A DNA stretch of 37,104 nucleotides. Source: Bacteroidales bacterium (GTDB taxonomy: Bacteria > Bacteroidota > Bacteroidia > Bacteroidales > UBA932). Below are positions 16,430-37,104 of this stretch, piece after piece. Position numbers and translations under genes: made by a program. The stretch lies in NCBI GenBank assembly GCA_029010575.1, contig JAQXKS010000052.1, forward strand, positions 1 through 37,104. Direction: 5' to 3'. The first letter of the stretch is position 1. Every line of letters begins with the position of its first letter. The notes beneath the pieces are model-generated. The model worked only from the letters and a program-made list of their open reading frames with translations, searched no databases and was not told the origin of the DNA.

Positions 16430-18061
16430 TTATTCTTTCTTTTTATTTTTTATCTCTTCATTTCTTCTAATTGCAGCCTTTACGAAGGCAGTGAAGATAG
16501 GCTGTGGATTCTCTGGAGTACTTTTATATTCAGGATGGAATTGCACACCGATAAAGAACGGATGATTCCTAACTTCTACTATCTCTGCCAAAGATGTATC
16601 GGGATTACGTCCTGTAACACTCATTCCGGCAGCTTCCAAAGCAGCCACATAATCGTTATTGAGCTCGTATCTGTGTCTGTGTCTTTCACTGATTACCTTC
16701 TTTCCATAAATAGAGTAGGCAAGAGAACCCTCACGCAGTTCACATGAATATGCTCCGAGCCTCATGGTTCCTCCTTTTATGGTTGTGGTCTTCTGGTCTG
16801 ACATCAGGTCAATGACGGGAACCTTTGCATTCGCTTCGACCTCAGCAGAAACAGCATCAGGAAGACCGGCCATGTGACGGGCAAATTCAACAACAGCCAT
16901 CTGCATACCAAGACAGATACCGAAGAAAGGAATATTGTTTTCCCTTGCATATCTGATTGCAGAAATCTTTCCTTCCAAACCTCTTTCACCAAATCCTGGA
17001 GCTACCAGTACACCGCACATTCCACTGAGCTTTTCAGCTACATTGGAATCATTTATGAATTCACTATGAATGGGATGAACTTTCACCTTACAATTATTTG
17101 CAGCTCCTGCGTGTATGAATGATTCGAGGATAGATTTATAGGCATCCTGAAGTTCGACATACTTTCCGACAAGTGCTATATCCACAATCTTTGAAGGATG
17201 GGTAAGCCTATCTACGAATTTTTCCCACCTATCCATATTTGGCTGTGGAAGATCCGACAATCCGAACTTTTCCAGAACAATCTCATCCAGACGTTCCTGT
17301 CTCATCAGCAGAGGCACCTGATAAATGGTATCGGCATCTATTGACTGAATGACACATCCTGGCTTGACATTGCAGAAAAGGGCAAGTTTCTTCCTCACAT
17401 CCAGAGGCAATTCATGTTCTGTACGGCAGACCAGCACATCGGGCTGCACTCCATTCTGCTGAAGTTGTTTAACAGAGTGTTGAGTGGGCTTGGTCTTGAG
17501 TTCCTTTGCAGCTGCAAGATAGGGAACAAGGGTAAGATGTATTACAAGGCAATCCTCTGAGGGAAGCTCCCACTGAAGCTGTCTGACAGCCTCAACGAAA
17601 GGAAGCGACTCCATATCACCGACAGTACCACCTATTTCAGTAATCACAACATCGTAATTTCCCGATTTACCCAGAAGAAGCATCCTTCTTTTGATCTCAT
17701 CCGTAATATGGGGAACTATCTGTACTGTTTTTCCAAGGTATGCCCCCTGGCGTTCCTTGTCAATAACCGTACGGTAGATCTTACCTGTGGTTACATTGTT
17801 TGCCTTGCTGGTATAATGATCCAGAAACCTTTCATAATGTCCCAGATCAAGGTCAGTTTCCGCACCGTCCTCAGTTACGAAACACTCACCGTGCTCGTAA
17901 GGATTAAGAGTACCCGGGTCGACATTGAGATATGGGTCAAATTTCTGAATTGTAACACGTAAATTACGTGCAGTCAACAATTTGGCCAAAGAGGCCGATA
18001 TAATACCTTTTCCAAGAGAAGATGTAACCCCTCCCGTAACAAAAACATATTTAACAGACAT
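16430..18061 (-). CDS. pyrG: CTP synthase
   Basis: The 543-residue enzyme aminates UTP to CTP with glutamine as nitrogen donor. The synthetase domain begins KYVFVTGGVTSSLGKGIISA with its P-loop. EIGGTVGDMESLPF (about 145-158) and PTQHSVKQLQ (about 192-201) are conserved UTP/ATP sites. The glutamine amidotransferase domain carries the nucleophile Cys in FFGICLGMQMAV near residue 383, and the His/Glu pair in QFHPEY near residue 518. Length is standard. It leads the three-gene minus-strand unit; its promoter overlaps that of the divergent thioesterase operon. Confidence 0.98.
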   Translation of the reverse strand: MSVKYVFVTGGVTSSLGKGIISASLAKLLTARNLRVTIQKFDPYLNVDPGTLNPYEHGECFVTEDGAETDLDLGHYERFLDHYTSKANNVTTGKIYRTVIDKERQGAYLGKTVQIVPHITDEIKRRMLLLGKSGNYDVVITEIGGTVGDMESLPFVEAVRQLQWELPSEDCLVIHLTLVPYLAAAKELKTKPTQHSVKQLQQNGVQPDVLVCRTEHELPLDVRKKLALFCNVKPGCVIQSIDADTIYQVPLLMRQERLDEIVLEKFGLSDLPQPNMDRWEKFVDRLTHPSKIVDIALVGKYVELQDAYKSILESFIHAGAANNCKVKVHPIHSEFINDSNVAEKLSGMCGVLVAPGFGERGLEGKISAIRYARENNIPFFGICLGMQMAVVEFARHMAGLPDAVSAEVEANAKVPVIDLMSDQKTTTIKGGTMRLGAYSCELREGSLAYSIYGKKVISERHRHRYELNNDYVAALEAAGMSVTGRNPDTSLAEIVEVRNHPFFIGVQFHPEYKSTPENPQPIFTAFVKAAIRRNEEIKNKKKE

Positions 18062-18090: not shown

Positions 18091-18121
18091 CAAAATTAGC
18101 TAAAAAAACTATCTTTGCAAG
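18091..18121 (-). promoter_or_regulatory. Promoter of pyrG unit
   Basis: The minus strand has CTTG (18118-18121, one mismatch to TTTG), 19 nt, then TAATTTTG (18091-18098). It overlaps the divergent promoter at 18110-18117. Confidence 0.6.
18110..18117 (+). promoter_or_regulatory. -7 element of the thioesterase-reductase operon
   Basis: TATCTTTG matches the consensus perfectly, 23 nt before the ATG at 18141. No TTTG is seen at the -33 spacing. The box lies in the spacer of the divergent pyrG promoter, so the two polymerases would compete. Confidence 0.6.
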
Positions 18122-18140
18122 TCATTCAAAATTATTTAAA

Positions 18141-18881
18141 ATGAAACAGAAAACAATTGGTTTTATTGTCGACTCCTCCAAGGTTGACAATAGAAAAGAG
18201 TATAGGCCTTGTGCATTTATGTCTGATGCACAGGATATAGCCAATATACATGCATCTGCTATTGGTTTCGGATATAAGGATTTGATCACCTCTTCTGCAG
18301 TTTGGGTCCTCTCCAGGCTGAAAGTTAAATATTACTCACATCCCAAGTGGGAAGACACAGTAGCCTTGACTACCTGGCACAAAGGACGCGAAGGAATTAT
18401 GTCGCTCAGAGATTATGAGTTGACAGATACACAGGGAAACATTCTCATAGCAGCGACAAGCTCTTGGCTTATCATCGATCCCAAGACCAGAAAAATGCTC
18501 AGGCCTGACCACATTCTTGGTGAAGGGGGACTTGAAACTTCCTTTGAAAAAGATGCAATTGCCGGTAATTGCGACAAAATAAGAACAAATTTCGACTCAA
18601 TCTTGAATAAAGTGATGGAGCATCAAGTAAGATTCTCCGACATAGACATGAATGCACACACCAATAACACTAAATATTTCGAATGGGCTCTGGACGCCAT
18701 CGACACATCCGTCACCACATCACATGCTGTTCAAGAGTTCCAGATTAACTTCAACCACGAGGCCCAGCTGGGCGATATAGTCGAGCTGAGCACGGCTCAA
18801 ACTGCACCCTTGACCTATTATGTAGAGGGCAACTGCTCAGGCAAAAATATCTTCCAGACCATTATCCAGTTCCAACAATAA
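18141..18881 (+). CDS. Acyl-ACP thioesterase (FatA/FatB family)
   Basis: The 246-residue double hot-dog enzyme should release fatty acids from acyl carrier protein. The first half contains SSAVWVLSRLKVKYYSHPKW and the second the active-site segment FSDIDMNAHTNNTKYFEWAL (about 171-190), where Asp, Asn and His match the catalytic residues of plant-type thioesterases. The frame is open further upstream into pyrG, but the ATG at 18141 follows a promoter and gives the normal N-terminus (MKQKTIGFIVDSSKVDN). It heads a five-gene unit, 13 nt before the 5-alpha-reductase homologue. Whether it acts on fatty or steroid acyl groups is not determinable from sequence. Confidence 0.85.
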   Translation: MKQKTIGFIVDSSKVDNRKEYRPCAFMSDAQDIANIHASAIGFGYKDLITSSAVWVLSRLKVKYYSHPKWEDTVALTTWHKGREGIMSLRDYELTDTQGNILIAATSSWLIIDPKTRKMLRPDHILGEGGLETSFEKDAIAGNCDKIRTNFDSILNKVMEHQVRFSDIDMNAHTNNTKYFEWALDAIDTSVTTSHAVQEFQINFNHEAQLGDIVELSTAQTAPLTYYVEGNCSGKNIFQTIIQFQQ

Positions 18882-18894
18882 AAAAATACCGAAA

Positions 18895-19662
18895 ATGAAT
18901 ATTCATACTTACTACATAGTGATGATCGCTATGTCAATTCTCGCTGTTATAGTATTTATTGCACTTCACCACTTCAAGGCCGGATACGGATACCTGCGAA
19001 ACTCTTCCTGGGGTCCCATGATCAACAACAAACTCGGTTGGGTACTGATGGAATTGCCTGTCTTCATTTCAATGCTGGTATTCTTCCTCTATACAGAAAG
19101 CTACCGTAATCTTACAGTCTCCATAATGACAGGTTTTTTCCTTCTTCACTACTTCCAGAGGTCACTCATTTTTCCGTTCCTGATGAAGGGGAAAAGCAAG
19201 ATTCCTGTGGCAATTGTAGCCATGGGTGTGACATTTAACCTGGTCAATGTCTATATGATAGGCAGCTGGTTATTTGTATTTGCACCCAAGGAGATGTACA
19301 CGACAGAGTGGCTCACAGACCTGCGGTTCATTATTGGTTCATTAATCTTCATTTTCGGAATGGCTGTGAATATCCACTCTGACTACATCATTAGGCATCT
19401 TCGCAAGCCCGGCGACACAGCACACTACATCCCTATGGGAGGAATGTTCAAATATGTATCATCTGCAAATTATTATGGTGAAATTACAGAATGGCTTGGT
19501 TTTGCAATATTGACATGGAGTATGCCGGGTGCACTCTTTTGCATCTGGACGTTTGCAAACCTTGCCCCCAGGGCATTCTCCCTTTACGATAAATATGCAG
19601 AAGAATTTGGTGAAGAATTCACATCCCTGCACCGCAAAAAAGTGTTACCCTTTATATATTAA
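18895..19662 (+). CDS. Steroid 5-alpha-reductase family membrane protein
   Basis: A 255-residue integral membrane protein with about six or seven hydrophobic segments. Residues matching the mammalian SRD5A active site are visible: MELPVFI with Glu53, LLHYFQRSLIFPF with His85, Tyr86 and Arg89, and the NADPH-side signature GMFKYVSSANYYGEITEW (about 184-201). The C-terminus HRKKVLPFIY is also family-like. These enzymes reduce the C4-C5 double bond of 3-oxo-delta-4 steroids with NADPH. Homologues in gut Bacteroidales are known to act on 3-oxo bile acids, which is plausible here. An enoyl-reductase role in lipid metabolism is the alternative. It is 2 nt before the flavin reductase gene. Confidence 0.85.
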   Translation: MNIHTYYIVMIAMSILAVIVFIALHHFKAGYGYLRNSSWGPMINNKLGWVLMELPVFISMLVFFLYTESYRNLTVSIMTGFFLLHYFQRSLIFPFLMKGKSKIPVAIVAMGVTFNLVNVYMIGSWLFVFAPKEMYTTEWLTDLRFIIGSLIFIFGMAVNIHSDYIIRHLRKPGDTAHYIPMGGMFKYVSSANYYGEITEWLGFAILTWSMPGALFCIWTFANLAPRAFSLYDKYAEEFGEEFTSLHRKKVLPFIY

Positions 19663-19664
19663 CA

Positions 19665-20906
19665 ATGGAATCAAAATTATTTACACCGGGCAAAATAGGC
19701 CCTATAGAAATCAAGAACAGGATAATCAGGGCATCAGCCTTCGAGGCAATGTGCCCCGGTCATAAACCTTCACAACAGCTCAAGGATTATCATACTGCAG
19801 TGGCAAAAGGCGGGGTCGGAATGACCAATGTTGCCTACGCAGCCGTATGTCAGAGCGGCCTCTCTTTCGAAAGCCAGCTCATCATGGATCCTTCCAACAT
19901 CCCCGGATTCAAAGACCTTACAGACTCGATACACCGGTACGACACCAAGGCATGTATCCAGCTTGGACACTGTGGAAACATGTCGCACAAGCGTGTCTGC
20001 GGCTGTCTGCCCGTGGGAGCCTCTACCGGTTTCAACCTCTACTCCCCTACCTTTGTCCACGGACTCAAAGAGAGCGAGATGATTCAGATCGCCAAGAAAC
20101 ATGGCGATGCAGTCAGGATAGCAATTGATGGCGGTTTTGATGCTGTTGAAATACACGCCGGACATGGATACCTCATCTCACAATTCCTCTCTCCTTACAC
20201 CAACCACAGACGCGACCAGTATGGAGGTTCATTCTCTAACAGAATGAAATTCATGGACATGTGCATGAACGAAGTGATGGAAGCTGCTTCTGACAGAATA
20301 GCAGTAATGGTAAAGACAAATACCTCTGATGGTTTCAAGGGAGGTCTGGGAGTAAGTGAGTGTATAGAGGTTGCAAAAAGGCTCGAATACCTCGGTGCGC
20401 ATTGTCTTGTCCTGAGTGGTGGGTTCGTTAGTAGAGCTCCGATGTATGTCATGAAAGGAGCAATGCCAATCAGTACCCTGACAGACTATATGCCATGGAA
20501 ATCTCTCTGGTGGCTAAAGATCGGAGTCAACCTATTCGGCAAGATGATGATCAAGAACGAGCCGTTCAAGGAGGCTTTTTTCCTCGAAGATGCCCTGCGT
20601 TTCAGACAGGAACTCAAGATGCCACTTGCACTTGTGGGAGGTCTCCACTCACGTGAAAGTCTCGAAAAGGCCATCAACTCAGGATTTGAATTCACAGAGA
20701 TGGCCCGTCCGCTGGTACACGATCCAGACTTCGTAAACAAACTCAGGGAAGGCAAGGTGGAAAGGAGCGGATGCCAGCATGCCAACTATTGCGTTGCCAG
20801 GATCTGGAACAAGGATATGCAGTGCCACGAAAACTGCACCCTCTCCGCAAGAATGGAGAAAGAGATCCGGAAGAATATAAAATATGCATCATTATCAAAC
20901 AAATAA
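19665..20906 (+). CDS. NADH:flavin oxidoreductase (Old Yellow Enzyme/Bai type)
   Basis: The 413-residue protein has the FMN-binding TIM barrel of the OYE family: FTPGKIGPIEIKNRIIRA at the N-terminus, IQLGHCGNMSHK near residue 100, and the catalytic block VEIHAGHGYLISQFLSPYTN, then HRRDQYGGSFSNRMKF, near 160-200. MARPLVHDPDF near 346 is the conserved C-terminal loop. It lacks the flavodoxin-like FAD/NAD domains of full-length 2,4-dienoyl-CoA reductase. The short tail keeps cysteines (Cys370, 376, 387, 391), but an Ala occupies position 373 where a cluster Cys is usual. Such reductases saturate C=C bonds next to a ketone, including 5-beta reduction of steroids. It is in one operon with the 5-alpha-reductase homologue. 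Confidence 0.88.
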   Translation: MESKLFTPGKIGPIEIKNRIIRASAFEAMCPGHKPSQQLKDYHTAVAKGGVGMTNVAYAAVCQSGLSFESQLIMDPSNIPGFKDLTDSIHRYDTKACIQLGHCGNMSHKRVCGCLPVGASTGFNLYSPTFVHGLKESEMIQIAKKHGDAVRIAIDGGFDAVEIHAGHGYLISQFLSPYTNHRRDQYGGSFSNRMKFMDMCMNEVMEAASDRIAVMVKTNTSDGFKGGLGVSECIEVAKRLEYLGAHCLVLSGGFVSRAPMYVMKGAMPISTLTDYMPWKSLWWLKIGVNLFGKMMIKNEPFKEAFFLEDALRFRQELKMPLALVGGLHSRESLEKAINSGFEFTEMARPLVHDPDFVNKLREGKVERSGCQHANYCVARIWNKDMQCHENCTLSARMEKEIRKNIKYASLSNK

Positions 20907-20917
20907 ATAATCCACCT

Positions 20918-23145
20918 ATGAGAAACAGACTCTTTATAGCAGCTATTTGGCTGATAGCTATAGTAAGTTGCACAGGGAACGCGCGTACGCCTAAGATAGA
21001 AGAGACCAGGAAACTTCAATCACCCGACAGACGTCTTGAACTCACATTCGGGCTTACGCGTTTAGGCGAGCCTCTATACACCCTTAGCTTTGATGGGAAA
21101 AAAGTCATCAACGAAAGCCGTATGGGATTTGAAATTGTTCACGAAGGGGGAATAAACGATGTTCAGCCCTTCATGGCAGACTGGACCATCAAGGAGAGCA
21201 ACACCATCCTCCATCCCTCCGAGCTCAAAAAAGGCTTCTCAATAGACACTGTTACCTATAACAATGTCAACTCGTCTTGGGCTCCGGTATGGGGAGAAGA
21301 GAGCATCATTACCGAAAATTACAATGAGATGGCTATTACTCTCCATCAAAAAACAGAAGATGGCCGTGAACGAGATATACTGATTAGATTCAGACTCTTC
21401 AATGACGGATTGGGCTTCAGATATGAATTCCCCAGACAGCAGAATCTGGGATACTTCATTATCGGCAATGAGCTTACAGAATTTTCAATGGCCGAAGACC
21501 TTACCGCATTCTGGATTGCAGGGGACTACGATGCCAATGAATTCAGATACGAGACATCACATCTGAGTGAAATAGCCACACTTTATCCCGACTTTGACAG
21601 AAGCGGAAACTCATGTATATGTCCAATGCCGGTACCGGGAGTCCAGACACCTGTAATGATGAAAAGCGACAACGGAGGTCTCTATGTCAATATCCACGAG
21701 GCCGCTCTTGACGACTTCTCTTCCATGCAGCTGGAAATCAGAGATGGAAAACGCTTTGTTGCACACCTTGTCCCTGATGTATTGGGAAACAGAGGCTACA
21801 TCCAGACACCACACCACTCACCCTGGAGAACAGTCATTGTCGCCGACAATGCTCCTTCAATTCTCGAAAGCAGACTCATCCTTAACCTCAATGAGCCCTG
21901 TGCCATAGAAGATACAGACTGGATTCGTCCTCAGAAATTCGTAGGAGTGTGGTGGCAGATGTTTGCACCCGGACAGGGAACATGGTCATACACCGACGAA
22001 CCCAATATCAGACTAGGTATCACTGACTATACCAAGACCAAACCGAATAATACACATGCAGCCAATACAGAAAAGTCAAGAAGTACATCGACTTCGCAGC
22101 AAATAATTCAATAGAGGGTGTATTGGTAGAGGGCTGGAATGAAGGTTGGGAAGACTGGTTTGGACAGTTCAAAGATTTTGTATTTGACTTTATTACTCCA
22201 TATCCTGATTTTGATGTAGTCAAACTTCGCGAATATGCAAAGAGCAAAGGAGTCAGCCTCATAATGCACCATGAAACATCCGGTTCTACACAGAACTACG
22301 AAAAGTATCTGGATAGGGCATACCAATTCATGAAGGACAACAACTACTCCGTAGTAAAAAGCGGTTATGTAGGGGCAATACTTCCAAGAGGTTCACACCA
22401 CTATGACCAGCAATCCGTAAATCACTACCTGCACTGTATACGCAGAGGTGCCGACTATCAGGTAATGATCGATGCACACGAACCTGTAAGGCCAACCGGT
22501 ATGCATAGGACATATCCCAACTATATGGCAGCCGAATCCGGTAGAGGTACTGAATTCGAGTCATTCGGACCTGTTGGCAATCCACCTGAACACACTACTA
22601 TCCTCCCTTTCACACGCTTTATTGGAGGACCAATGGACTACACCCCTGGTATTTTCCAGCAGAAGATGTCATATTACGATGGTAAATCTCAGGCGCAGAT
22701 ACACACTACACTGACCAAGCAGCTCGCACTTTATGTAGTACTCTACTCTCCCATCCAGATGGTGGCAGACCTTCCCGAAAACTACGCAAGGTTCGATGAT
22801 GCCTTCACTTTCATCCGTAATGTCCCTACAGACTGGGACTACACCAAAGTTCTCGAAGCTGAACCAGGAGACTACATCACAACAGCCCGCAAAGCAAAAG
22901 GTCAGGATAGATGGTTCATTGGGGCCATCACCGATGAAAATGAGAGGACAGCTCTCATCGACCTCTCAAAACTACCTCTGAAAGATGGAAAAGAGTACAC
23001 AGCAGTAATATATGCTGATGGAGCCGATGCATCATGGGATGATAACCCGCAGAGTTATACCATCTCCACAAAAAAGGTTAACTCAAAGAGTCTTCTTGAA
23101 ATCCACCTTGCAAAATCAGGCGGATGTGCAATAGAACTGAAATAG
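20918..23145 (+). pseudogene. GH97 glycoside hydrolase (SusB-like alpha-glucosidase), frameshifted
   Basis: The intact product would be a periplasmic or surface lipoprotein of about 742 residues, the size of SusB. The signal peptide MRNRLFIAAIWLIAIVSC ends in a lipobox. The beta-sandwich half is followed by a TIM barrel with GVLVEGWNEGWEDWFG, the DAHEPVRPTGMHRTYPN segment and ESGRGTEFE, Glu residues typical of the inverting SusB subgroup. At 22070-22075 the run GAAAAG breaks the frame. Upstream reading ends at 22114, while downstream homology (KKYIDFAANN) begins at 22075 in another frame. One extra A restores NTEKVKKYIDFA. It is either a young pseudogene or a sequencing error; both halves are otherwise well conserved. 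Confidence 0.85.
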
Positions 23146-23157
23146 ACAATTAAAGAT

Positions 23158-24840
23158 ATGAACAGAATATTTAATTCAATTATGACTGCTGCTATAATTG
23201 CCGGAGCTGCCGGATGCACCTGCTCTTCACCAGAGAAGGAACTTCAGTCAATAATAGACAACACCGTTGAAAAATATGAACCTCTCTTCAAAGAGGCCAA
23301 CCTTGCATATTGGAACGGAGCCATCAGCGGGAAAGCAGAAGACTTCGAAGCATACTCGCAAGCTAATATGAAACTTACTGAGATCCTTTCCGACGCTCAA
23401 ACCTTTTCGAAACTCAAGCAGATAAAGGAATCCGGAAAAGTTTCCGACCCTGTACTGAAAAGAGAACTGGAGATACTGTATAACATGTATCTCTCGAAAC
23501 AGGCAGACACGACACTGCTCCATGCCATAATCCAGAAAGAGATGGAGATCGAGCAGAAATATTCGGGATTCAGAGCTCTCCATAATGGCAGGTCAATAGA
23601 CGACAACGAGGTCGAAAGAATACTCAAGACATCGCTTGACAGCAAAGAGCTTGAGAATGTATGGAAAGCACACAAACAAATCGGAAAGGTCGTAAGTCAG
23701 GATATTATAGAGGTGGTAAAACTCAGAAACAAACTGGCTGTTAGCCTTGGATTTAGGGATTATTATGACATGAGCCTTTCCCTCGGAGGTGCCTCACCTG
23801 AAGAGGTCTATGAACTGCTCGATGAAGTCGACTCCCTCACCTCAGAGAGTTTTGCCCAGGTAAAAAAGGAGATGGACAGAATATTCGCAAAGAAATATTC
23901 AATAAAGGAAGCAGAACTACGTCCCTGGCACTATCAGAACAGATACTTCCAGGAAGCTCCAGAGCTCTATCCTGTAGATCTGGACAGCTACTACGCTGAG
24001 GCTGACCTACGTAAGATTACCATAGATTACTACGCATCAATAGGCATAGATATTACCTCCATGATGGATGCAAGTGACCTCTACTCCAAACCTGGCAAAA
24101 ATCAGCACGCCTTCTGTACCGACATTGACAGAAGAGGAGATGTCAGGGTATTATGCAATCTTAGCAACAATGAGCGCTGGATGGGAACCATGCTTCACGA
24201 ATTCGGACACGCCGTTTACTCGAAAGGACATGACGAAAACGAAGAGCTTCCATACCTTCTCAGAGATGCTGCGGCAATGTTCACCACAGAAGCAGCTGCA
24301 ATGCTCTTTGAAAGACAGAGCAAGAATCCCCAATGGATGAAACACTACATCGGTATAAGCGACCAAGAGGCTGAAAGAATCTCTGACGCCTGCATCAAGT
24401 CCGCCCGTCTGAAACAGCTCGTATTCAGCAGGTGGGTACAGGTGGTATCGCGTTTCGAGAAGGGAATGTATGCTGATCCCGATCAGGACCTCAACAAACT
24501 CTGGTGGGACCTGGCAGAAAAATACCAGCTTCTCAAACGTCCCGATAATTGGGACAATGCCGACTGGGCATCAAAGATCCATATTGCCATCTACCCCTGC
24601 TACTACCATAACTATCAGCTTGGTGAGCTCTTTGCTTCACAGATGCACCATTATATCATAAACAACGTGACAAAGAGCAAAGATCTCAGACACGACACAT
24701 ATATCGGTAACAAAGAAGTAGGCAAGTGGATAAATGACAACGTCTTCCGTCCCGGAATGCTCTACCATTGGAACGATATGATTGAGAGGGCTACAGGCGA
24801 AAAACTCACAGCCAAGTATTATCAGGAAGAGTTCAGATAA
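23158..24840 (+). CDS. Zinc dipeptidyl carboxypeptidase-like lipoprotein (M2/M3 clan)
   Basis: A 560-residue exported lipoprotein (MNRIFNSIMTAAIIAGAAGC, lipobox AAGC). It is largely alpha-helical with the metallopeptidase motif HEFGHAVY (His347, Glu348, His351) and a likely third zinc ligand Glu378 in FTTEAAAMLFER. Layout and length resemble the angiotensin-converting enzyme (M2) and oligopeptidase (M3) families, which remove dipeptides or short segments from peptides. GASPEEVYELLDEVD (about 210-225) and PGMLYHWNDMIERATGEKL at the C-terminus are family-like. It is last in the five-gene unit, 12 nt after GH97, and is followed by a strong terminator. M2 is favoured but not certain. Confidence 0.85.
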   Translation: MNRIFNSIMTAAIIAGAAGCTCSSPEKELQSIIDNTVEKYEPLFKEANLAYWNGAISGKAEDFEAYSQANMKLTEILSDAQTFSKLKQIKESGKVSDPVLKRELEILYNMYLSKQADTTLLHAIIQKEMEIEQKYSGFRALHNGRSIDDNEVERILKTSLDSKELENVWKAHKQIGKVVSQDIIEVVKLRNKLAVSLGFRDYYDMSLSLGGASPEEVYELLDEVDSLTSESFAQVKKEMDRIFAKKYSIKEAELRPWHYQNRYFQEAPELYPVDLDSYYAEADLRKITIDYYASIGIDITSMMDASDLYSKPGKNQHAFCTDIDRRGDVRVLCNLSNNERWMGTMLHEFGHAVYSKGHDENEELPYLLRDAAAMFTTEAAAMLFERQSKNPQWMKHYIGISDQEAERISDACIKSARLKQLVFSRWVQVVSRFEKGMYADPDQDLNKLWWDLAEKYQLLKRPDNWDNADWASKIHIAIYPCYYHNYQLGELFASQMHHYIINNVTKSKDLRHDTYIGNKEVGKWINDNVFRPGMLYHWNDMIERATGEKLTAKYYQEEFR

Positions 24841-24865
24841 AAACTGAAACTTTCAGGATTGTTTC

Positions 24866-24906
24866 AAAAGCCGATGTCATAATCAGAATATGACACCGGC
24901 TTTTTT
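24866..24906 (+). terminator. Intrinsic terminator of the thioesterase-to-peptidase operon
   Basis: AAAAGCCG-A-TGTCATA pairs with TATGACA-C-CGGCTTTT around a short loop, followed by six T. It may also act weakly on the opposite strand, as the minus-strand Ig-repeat gene ends at 24940. Confidence 0.9.
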
Positions 24907-29132: not shown

Positions 29133-29452
29133 AAAGGCAGAATGCCTTATCGCTGCGAGAGCAGAGGAAAGTCCGGGCAGGAAAGAGCACTGCACTGTGG
29201 AAAGCACAGATAGGCGTAAGCTTATGATACGGGTAGCAGAAAATAACCGCCTCGCAAGAGGTAAGGGTGAAAAGGTGGGGTAAGAGCCCACCGGCCGCAA
29301 TGGCGACATTCCGGTGGTATCCGCCTGCAGCCTGCAAGGCCAAATATACCAACAATCAAGGGCTGCTCGTCCAATGTTGGGGGGTAGGCTGCTTAGATAA
29401 ATGATAGGGACCTGTTTACAGGCACAGAACTCGGCTTATAGTTCTGCCTTTT
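29133..29452 (+). ncRNA. rnpB: RNase P RNA
   Basis: The catalytic RNA of RNase P, about 320 nt. The universally conserved 5' core GAGGAAAGTCCGGGC occurs at 29164-29178, and the 3' core ACAGAACTCGGCTTATA at about 29424-29440. The region between includes GGTAAGGGTGAAAAGGTGGGGTAAGAGCCCACCGG-type blocks of bacterial type A RNA. Helix P1 is visible as AAAGGCAGAA pairing with TTCTGCCTTT at the two ends, and its 3' side runs into six T, so P1 and the U-run may also serve as terminator. The promoter -7 is immediately upstream. Confidence 0.95.
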
Positions 29453-29454
29453 TT

Positions 29455-36718: not shown

Positions 36719-36726
36719 ATAAAGGG

Positions 36727-36835
36727 CGGCGGCTACCTACTCTCCCACCCGGGTTAGGGCAGTACCATCGGCACTAGTGCGTTTAACTTCTCTGTTCGGA
36801 ATGGGAAGAGGTTGGTCCACACCGTCAAGCCACCA
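36727..36835 (-). rRNA. rrf: 5S ribosomal RNA
   Basis: The minus strand contains CCATTCCGAACAGAGAAGTT, the universal 5S core, and GGGTGGGAGAGTAGG near the 3' end. The termini GGTGGCT and AGCCGCC pair to form helix I. It lies about 90 nt behind the 23S gene. Ends are accurate to a few nt. Confidence 0.95.
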
Positions 36836-36926
36836 TATATTCTGCTGCCGAGCTCTTTAACTCAGCGTATGCTATATAAAGAGAGAGACAACTCCGGTTC
36901 TTGGTTTATTTTGTCATTCATATCAG

Positions 36927-37104
<178 letters not shown>

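Follow-up and report, generated by a model that had tools for sequence, protein, structure and literature searches.

A conserved pair of SRD5A-type and OYE-type reductase genes, probably the core of a known Bacteroidota steroid-ring module, behind a pyrG-linked thioesterase gene

The DNA analysed here (the window, 37,104 nucleotides) comes from a Bacteroidales bacterium (assembly GCA_029010575.1, contig JAQXKS010000052.1) and contains an operon in which a gene for a membrane homologue of SRD5A-type steroid 5-alpha-reductases (5AR) is followed, 2 nt downstream, by a gene for a flavin oxidoreductase of the old yellow enzyme (OYE) type. The 5AR-OYE pair is the meaningful unit of this operon, and it is an already described kind of steroid-reductase pair in a lineage-specific setting. 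It lies behind a gene for an acyl-acyl carrier protein (ACP) thioesterase (TE), which is divergent from pyrG (16430-18061, minus strand). The source genome (1.76 Mb in 77 contigs, 87% complete) has an uncultured 'Alistipes sp.' metagenome-assembled genome (MAG) as its closest named record; such MAG taxon names may be unreliable. The features of the locus are as follows:

18091..18098, minus strand: candidate −7 box TAATTTTG of the divergent pyrG promoter, from direct sequence reading
18110..18117, plus strand: candidate Bacteroidota −7 box TATCTTTG of the TE-5AR-OYE operon, a match to TAnnTTTG
18141..18881, plus strand: TE, acyl-ACP thioesterase-family protein of 246 aa (Pfam PF20791, 1.4e-20; PF01643, 5.5e-19)
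18895..19662, plus strand: 5AR, SRD5A-type steroid 5-alpha-reductase homologue, membrane protein of 255 aa (PF02544, 1.1e-41)
19665..20906, plus strand: OYE, single-domain OYE-type flavin mononucleotide (FMN) oxidoreductase of 413 aa (PF00724, 5.4e-51), probable 5-beta-side partner of 5AR
20918..22114, plus strand: N-terminal piece of a frameshifted GH97 gene (PF14508, 1.8e-61)
22123..23145, plus strand: GH97 catalytic and C-terminal piece, in the other frame (PF10566, 1.2e-78; PF14509, 1.1e-30)
23158..24840, plus strand: M2/M3-like zinc metallopeptidase (PF01401, 1.8e-23; PF01432, 3.6e-20), an apparent lipoprotein with a lipobox judged by eye from the sequence
24866..24904, plus strand: intrinsic terminator with 19-nt arms, 89% complementary, and a T run

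The operon of TE, 5AR, OYE, GH97 and peptidase is real. Its gaps are 13 nt (TE-5AR), 2 nt (5AR-OYE), 11 nt (OYE-GH97) and 12 nt (second GH97 piece-peptidase), which bears out the gene order and the 2-13 nt spacing given in an initial annotation made from the letters of the window; the count of five genes in that annotation did not hold, the GH97 gene lying in two frames. The single strong terminator it described is a hairpin at 24866-24904 with a folding energy of −22.2 kcal/mol (z −5.07, 0/200 shuffles as good), which a simple terminator scanner overlooked. For the single upstream promoter there is a candidate, a TAnnTTTG box, which we take to be the Bacteroidota −7 consensus. Of 22 upstream regions with the divergent pyrG-TE order (the window plus 21 loci, L031 and L067 sharing one contig), 21 have this box and L069 lacks it; among mononucleotide shuffles 4.6% have it. 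These counts cover the TE-side box; the candidate pyrG box was read in the window sequence. In NCBIfam there was no model for the 5AR, and the other operon proteins gave only sub-cut-off matches.

The membrane protein is supported as an SRD5A-type reductase by its sequence, by most of the residues compared and by its predicted fold. Its best solved relatives are PbSRD5A (1e-51, 37% identity) and human SRD5A2 (8.8e-43, 33% identity), and its AlphaFold2 (AF2) model (pLDDT 92.4) matches these folds with TM scores of 0.92 (7c83) and 0.83. In a Foldseek search with this model only two structures were found at E<0.001, both of them SRD5A (the same two proteins). The very-long-chain enoyl-CoA reductase gave a weak match (3.8e-9) and, from this and the Foldseek result, we reject a membrane protein of the enoyl-CoA-reductase type. 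All the residues singled out by the initial annotation (Glu53, His85, Tyr86, Arg89 and NYYGE at 192-196) are present, as are the equivalents of human Glu57, Tyr91, Asn160, Asp164, Arg171, Asn193, Glu197, Arg227 and Tyr235. Roles of such residues in catalysis and NADPH binding were assigned in SRD5A work (PMC7815742). The Glu/Tyr catalytic pair is common to PbSRD5A, human SRD5A2 and the window protein, and so are seven of the eight NADPH residues (N160, D164, R171, N193, E197, R227, H231 and Y235), the exception being H231, which is Leu in the window. In human SRD5A2, H231A is the variant without a significant drop in activity (PMC7815742).

The second difference from PbSRD5A and SRD5A2, overlooked in the initial annotation, is in the Q-E-Y motif, of which E53 and Y86 are kept and the position of human Gln56 is Met52. 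We aligned 106 fetched loci without de-duplication (L and G numbers are our handles for loci and genomes). Apart from L058, from a MAG labelled Dehalococcoidia, they come from Bacteroidota records or from genomes of the order Bacteroidales. The steroid-site Glu and Tyr are kept in 106/106, and Met stands at the Gln56 position in 106/106, including the Phocaeicola massiliensis locus L167. The Met is therefore a trait of the whole branch and not of the window. Since the strict Q-E-Y motif fails across this branch, we base SRD5A membership on the family fold and the branch instead; the window protein has both the PF02544 domain and the SRD5A fold.

Trees were quick ones with SH-aLRT support only. 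Before they were built, 22 of the 106 loci were taken out manually, most of them near-duplicates and a few short or truncated. The 5AR tree places the window in a 62-row clade (SH-aLRT 99) in which all rows are labelled OYE-linked. One row is the Phocaeicola massiliensis locus, the only stand-in for the characterised strains. The record of this locus (L167, OY726067.1), with the order 5AR-OYE-SDR (SDR, short-chain dehydrogenase/reductase), is labelled as a 140-kb, non-mobilizable Phocaeicola massiliensis plasmid and may be a mislabelled piece of chromosome. In 15 of the 106 loci a gene of the 3-beta-hydroxysteroid dehydrogenase/epimerase family precedes the 5AR and no OYE is adjacent (L127, L128, L130-L132, L134-L137, L139, L142, L058, L059, L062 and L063). 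The 14 of these that are in the tree all fall in a sister group with PbSRD5A (support 91), and these SRD5A homologues possibly form a separate steroid module.

The second reductase was annotated initially as Bai/OYE-like and 2 nt from the 5AR. The OYE family and the spacing stand, and a BaiCD identity does not: BaiCD (NF041087) is its best NCBIfam model, and the score of 180 bits is far below the cut-off of 825. With BaiCD and the clostridial OYE-type 5-beta-reductases it shares the OYE FMN domain and, by motif and unaligned to ci2350, an equivalent of the catalytic Tyr; it differs from them in its length of 413 aa and its altered Cys pattern. Among solved sequences it is closest to YqjM-class ene-reductases, and Foldseek matches of its model include ene-reductases, 2,4-dienoyl-CoA reductase and naphthoyl-CoA reductase. 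This AF2 model has a mean pLDDT of 77 with low confidence in several loops and at the C-terminus, and no conclusion was therefore built on its details. Grouping of both proteins with lipid or enoyl reductases had been named in the initial annotation as an outcome that would speak against steroid enzymes; the 5AR groups with SRD5A, and the solved neighbours of the OYE are general ene-reductases. The OYE may be a 5-beta enzyme.

Across 20 rows (the window and 19 related loci), His164, His167, Tyr169, Cys370, Cys376 and Cys387 of the OYE are invariant. The two His and the Tyr are those kept with the YqjM class, from which the window protein differs in its conserved C-terminal cysteines and in a family-specific insert (residues ~257-303), which most of the 20 rows show as a hydrophobic stretch rich in Trp. 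For the insert helix the hydrophobic moment ranges from low to moderate (0.05-0.48), and the hydrophobicity of the insert suggests that the protein may associate with the membrane. Fe-S flavoenzymes of the 2,4-dienoyl-CoA reductase type carry a four-cysteine 4Fe-4S motif and a flavin adenine dinucleotide (FAD) domain; the window OYE has three invariant Cys, no FAD domain match in Pfam and no match beyond the OYE domain.

Next we consider the two genes as a unit. The OYE is chained directly behind the 5AR in 63 of the 106 loci; upstream of the pair there is TE with pyrG in 21, TE without pyrG in one, and pyrG without TE in two, the other 39 having neither of these arrangements; SDR genes follow the OYE in 31 of the 63. 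In 7 further TE-linked loci one small extra gene lies between 5AR and OYE. Among 198 Bacteroidales genomes, searched for both genes under identical settings, a strong 5AR (PF02544 match >100 bits, partial matches in G073 and G114 excluded) was present in 44 and the OYE subfamily (E<=1e-60) in 34, and all 34 OYE genomes have the 5AR (Fisher 1.2e-29, from hand-tallied counts not corrected for relatedness). The synteny comparison across Bacteroidales proposed in the initial annotation gave neighbouring genes in 23 of the 34. In the other 11 they are on different contigs (G037, G128, G147, G155, G170, G174, G212, G214 and G229) or ~9 kb apart (G106 and G196), and these unlinked cases mean that the co-occurrence is not merely linkage. 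In G037, which has its 5AR on another contig, an SDR1 match comes directly after the OYE match, 27 nt from its end (G037:C52:114411-116348). Distances in the 5AR and OYE trees are correlated (r 0.61, 53 rows; the highest of 2000 permutations was 0.19). Adjacency, co-occurrence and correlated trees thus support the OYE as a real partner of the 5AR: the two stay together, and what varies is the dehydrogenases and the rest of the neighbourhood.

Such a pair is not unusual. In published Bacteroidota clusters the 5AR gene lies with a 3-beta-hydroxysteroid dehydrogenase (3-beta-HSDH) gene and a BaiCD/BaiH-like flavoenzyme gene (PMC10382948; PMC12697870). According to a review, disruption of the P. 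merdae 5AR prevented formation of allolithocholic acid (alloLCA) derivatives, and Odoribacter laneus is named alongside P. merdae (PMC10382948). The 5-beta-reductase (5BR) is reported to work in the oxidising direction on deoxycholic acid (DCA), ahead of the 5AR (PMC9645264). The 5AR gene was found in nearly all chicken caecal Bacteroidetes isolates of one study (PMC6069880), and an Alistipes sp. is listed among 5AR organisms (PMC12789469). The window shares with this 5AR/5BR/3-beta-HSDH cluster (isoallo-lithocholate; P. merdae, Odoribacter, P. dorei) an SRD5A-type gene beside one of the NADH:flavin oxidoreductase type, the two being 2 nt apart in the window and conserved as neighbours. It falls in one clade of Bacteroidales homologues with the Phocaeicola massiliensis locus, which stands in for the characterised strains. 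It differs in having no SDR at the locus and in the position of the pair behind the pyrG-linked TE.

The 5AR-OYE pair is probably the central part of the steroid A/B-ring module known from Bacteroidota, in a lineage-specific form whose locus has no hydroxysteroid dehydrogenase gene. In this module the soluble flavoenzyme would interconvert the 5-beta (bent) and delta-4 forms of 3-oxo steroids, and the 5AR in the membrane would reduce the 3-oxo-delta-4 form to the 5-alpha (flat) form with NADPH as donor. In many relatives genes for SDR-type dehydrogenases lie downstream in the same operon; the window lineage has none at the locus and carries the pair behind the apparently resident TE, the GH97 and peptidase genes probably being a separate unit brought in by local rearrangement. 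The trees, the co-occurrence, the active-site residues, the protein families and the order of the genes are observed; we infer the direction of reaction, the 5-beta activity of the OYE, the hydroxysteroid dehydrogenase role of the SDRs and bile acids as main substrate. On this reading a known steroid-ring module would extend to an uncultured Alistipes-like genus. Flat (allo) bile acids are reported to inhibit Gram-positive pathogens (PMC10382948) and to act on immune cells (PMC12697870), which makes it useful to know their potential uncultured makers.

The gene content of the genus points to bile acid exposure. The choloylglycine-hydrolase family (PF02275) was found in 18 of 19 same-genus genomes, including that of the window, vs 2 of 20 other Bacteroidales (Fisher 5e-8). 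The protein of the window genome (G000:C53:883-1827, L182) has a clostridial choloylglycine hydrolase as best match (4.6e-50) and an apparent signal peptide, judged by eye, ending before Cys25. Bile acids are accordingly a plausible substrate of the pair. Best matches to the cluster SDR1 elsewhere in same-genus genomes are 34-39% identical, and an SDR 36-40% identical to it is present away from the 5AR in same-genus and same-family genomes (L175-L181). In L175-L177, the loci whose open reading frames were read, its neighbours include genes that by eye resemble coaBC and recN. An SDR1-like gene is also present in G019, which has no 5AR, and no close copy was found in the window genome (G000) at its 87% completeness.

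Several observations weigh against assigning the window pair to the steroid module. The residue that Met52 replaces is needed in human SRD5A2, where Q56A/L lost activity (PMC7815742). The placement of the 5AR leans on the Phocaeicola massiliensis record as a stand-in for the enzymes characterised in P. merdae and P. dorei. At the thresholds given, 10 of the 44 genomes with a 5AR have no OYE, and TE-linked rows do not form one group in the 5AR tree or in the OYE tree. Near the 5AR, none of the 29 TE-linked loci, some of them cut by contig ends, has an SDR1 or SDR2 homologue, and we therefore file the window as a 5AR-OYE core and not as a full cluster. NCBIfam does not separate the choloylglycine-hydrolase-family protein between bile-salt hydrolase and penicillin V amidase, and several TE-linked record names suggest, on our interpretation, digesters and not a host gut (e.g. 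L037, 'SlDig').

It is possible, if somewhat unlikely, that the same pair acts naturally on neutral steroids or sterols (steroid hormones, cholestenone, phytosterol ketones) and not on bile acids. PbSRD5A responds mainly to progesterone (PMC7815742), gut clostridial OYE-type 5-beta-reductases act on progesterone (PMC12238238), and the digester-like names would fit such substrates; against this stand the bile-acid 5AR activity reported with gene disruption in Bacteroidota (PMC10382948) and the choloylglycine-hydrolase family in nearly every genus genome. That the membrane protein acts on lipids or polyprenoids, as an SRD5A3-like or enoyl-reductase-like enzyme with no steroid link, is very improbable. 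PF02544 also covers SRD5A3-like and enoyl-reductase-like enzymes, which with the replaced Gln56 counts for such a protein. The Foldseek and enoyl-CoA reductase results argue otherwise, in a comparison that did not include SRD5A3, as do the steroid-site Glu and Tyr kept in every locus and the 5AR genes behind 3-beta-hydroxysteroid dehydrogenase/epimerase-family genes, of which those in the tree fall in the sister group.

The TE could also be a functional third partner, freeing a bile or fatty acyl group from coenzyme A or ACP, with TE-5AR-OYE as a lipid pathway of its own. The protein has PF01643 and PF20791 matches above cut-off, which predict acyl-ACP thioesterase activity. The order pyrG, divergent TE, 5AR and OYE was found in 18/18 same-genus relatives searched (L067-L084) and also in some other genera, with mostly short gaps, and this conservation, together with the promoter box, favours a shared function. 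However, neither the window genome nor any of 18 same-genus genomes has a PF01643 match (E<=0.001) besides TE, and of 59 relatives 54 carry PF01643 vs 30 with the 5AR. Five of nine 5AR-less family members were examined: two (G027 and G034) keep TE beside divergent pyrG, and in three (G019, G032 and G025) there was no pyrG within the fetched TE stretch. Conversely, 5AR-OYE lies at pyrG without TE in two genomes (L088 and L161). We thus regard a TE partnership as improbable. As TE adjoins pyrG even without the 5AR, it looks like a resident pyrG-linked gene that shares its promoter with 5AR-OYE rather than a functional partner. A search of the open literature, limited to the word forms used, gave no paper joining acyl-ACP thioesterase, 5alpha-reductase and Bacteroid.

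Within the steroid module the two reductases could be coupled more closely. In this proposal, which we consider unlikely, the OYE would not work as a 5-beta-reductase by itself. Docked at the membrane and coupled to the 5AR by redox chemistry, it would do the oxidising step of A/B-ring inversion, taking hydrogen from 3-oxo-5-beta steroids and passing the resulting delta-4 intermediate on to the 5AR. Such coupling would explain why the OYE was never found without the 5AR (34/34) and the 5AR was found without the OYE (10/44), as well as the Trp-rich hydrophobic insert and the missing NAD/FAD domain. The one-way dependence would favour a coupled inverter over two competing reductases, and provides a testable idea on A/B-ring inversion. 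If it is true, the module in the window genus would work with no hydroxysteroid dehydrogenase encoded beside it.

The remaining genes of the operon are probably not part of this module. The GH97 gene (20918-23145) is split over two frames and is intact as a single 791-aa reading frame in the closest relative (L031); the break may be a true mutation or an assembly fault. The name dipeptidase in the initial annotation is imprecise; the protein is an M2/M3-like metallopeptidase with HEFGH present. The two genes lie directly behind the OYE only in the window genome and in G003 (L031/L067, one contig). The peptidase was found in 11/11 same-genus relatives searched, and a GH97 gene 80-83% identical and convergent with the peptidase is on the same contig in 7 of 10 relatives other than G003 (G001, G002, G004, G005, G006, G008 and G009). 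Where linked to the 5AR (G006, G007, G011 and the family member G028), peptidase or GH97 lies ~2-13 kb beyond the OYE, with the peptidase on the opposite strand. In these genomes they thus lie in the same region, which makes the rearrangement local and argues against a fully independent origin; the arrangement looks like one that placed an unrelated pair behind the OYE. We reject the idea of five genes working together as a 'steroid plus glycan plus peptide' operon, as elsewhere GH97 and peptidase are convergent and not in line with the OYE. A functional coupling to thioesterase, GH97 and peptidase, the combination that the initial annotation had pointed out, is therefore not upheld, and the unusual neighbours of 5AR-OYE are most likely accidents of gene order.

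Elsewhere in the window, Rfam matches were a group II intron fragment (1-50), RNase P class A (29134-29454) and, at the right edge (36724-37104), 5S rRNA and the 3' end of 23S rRNA.

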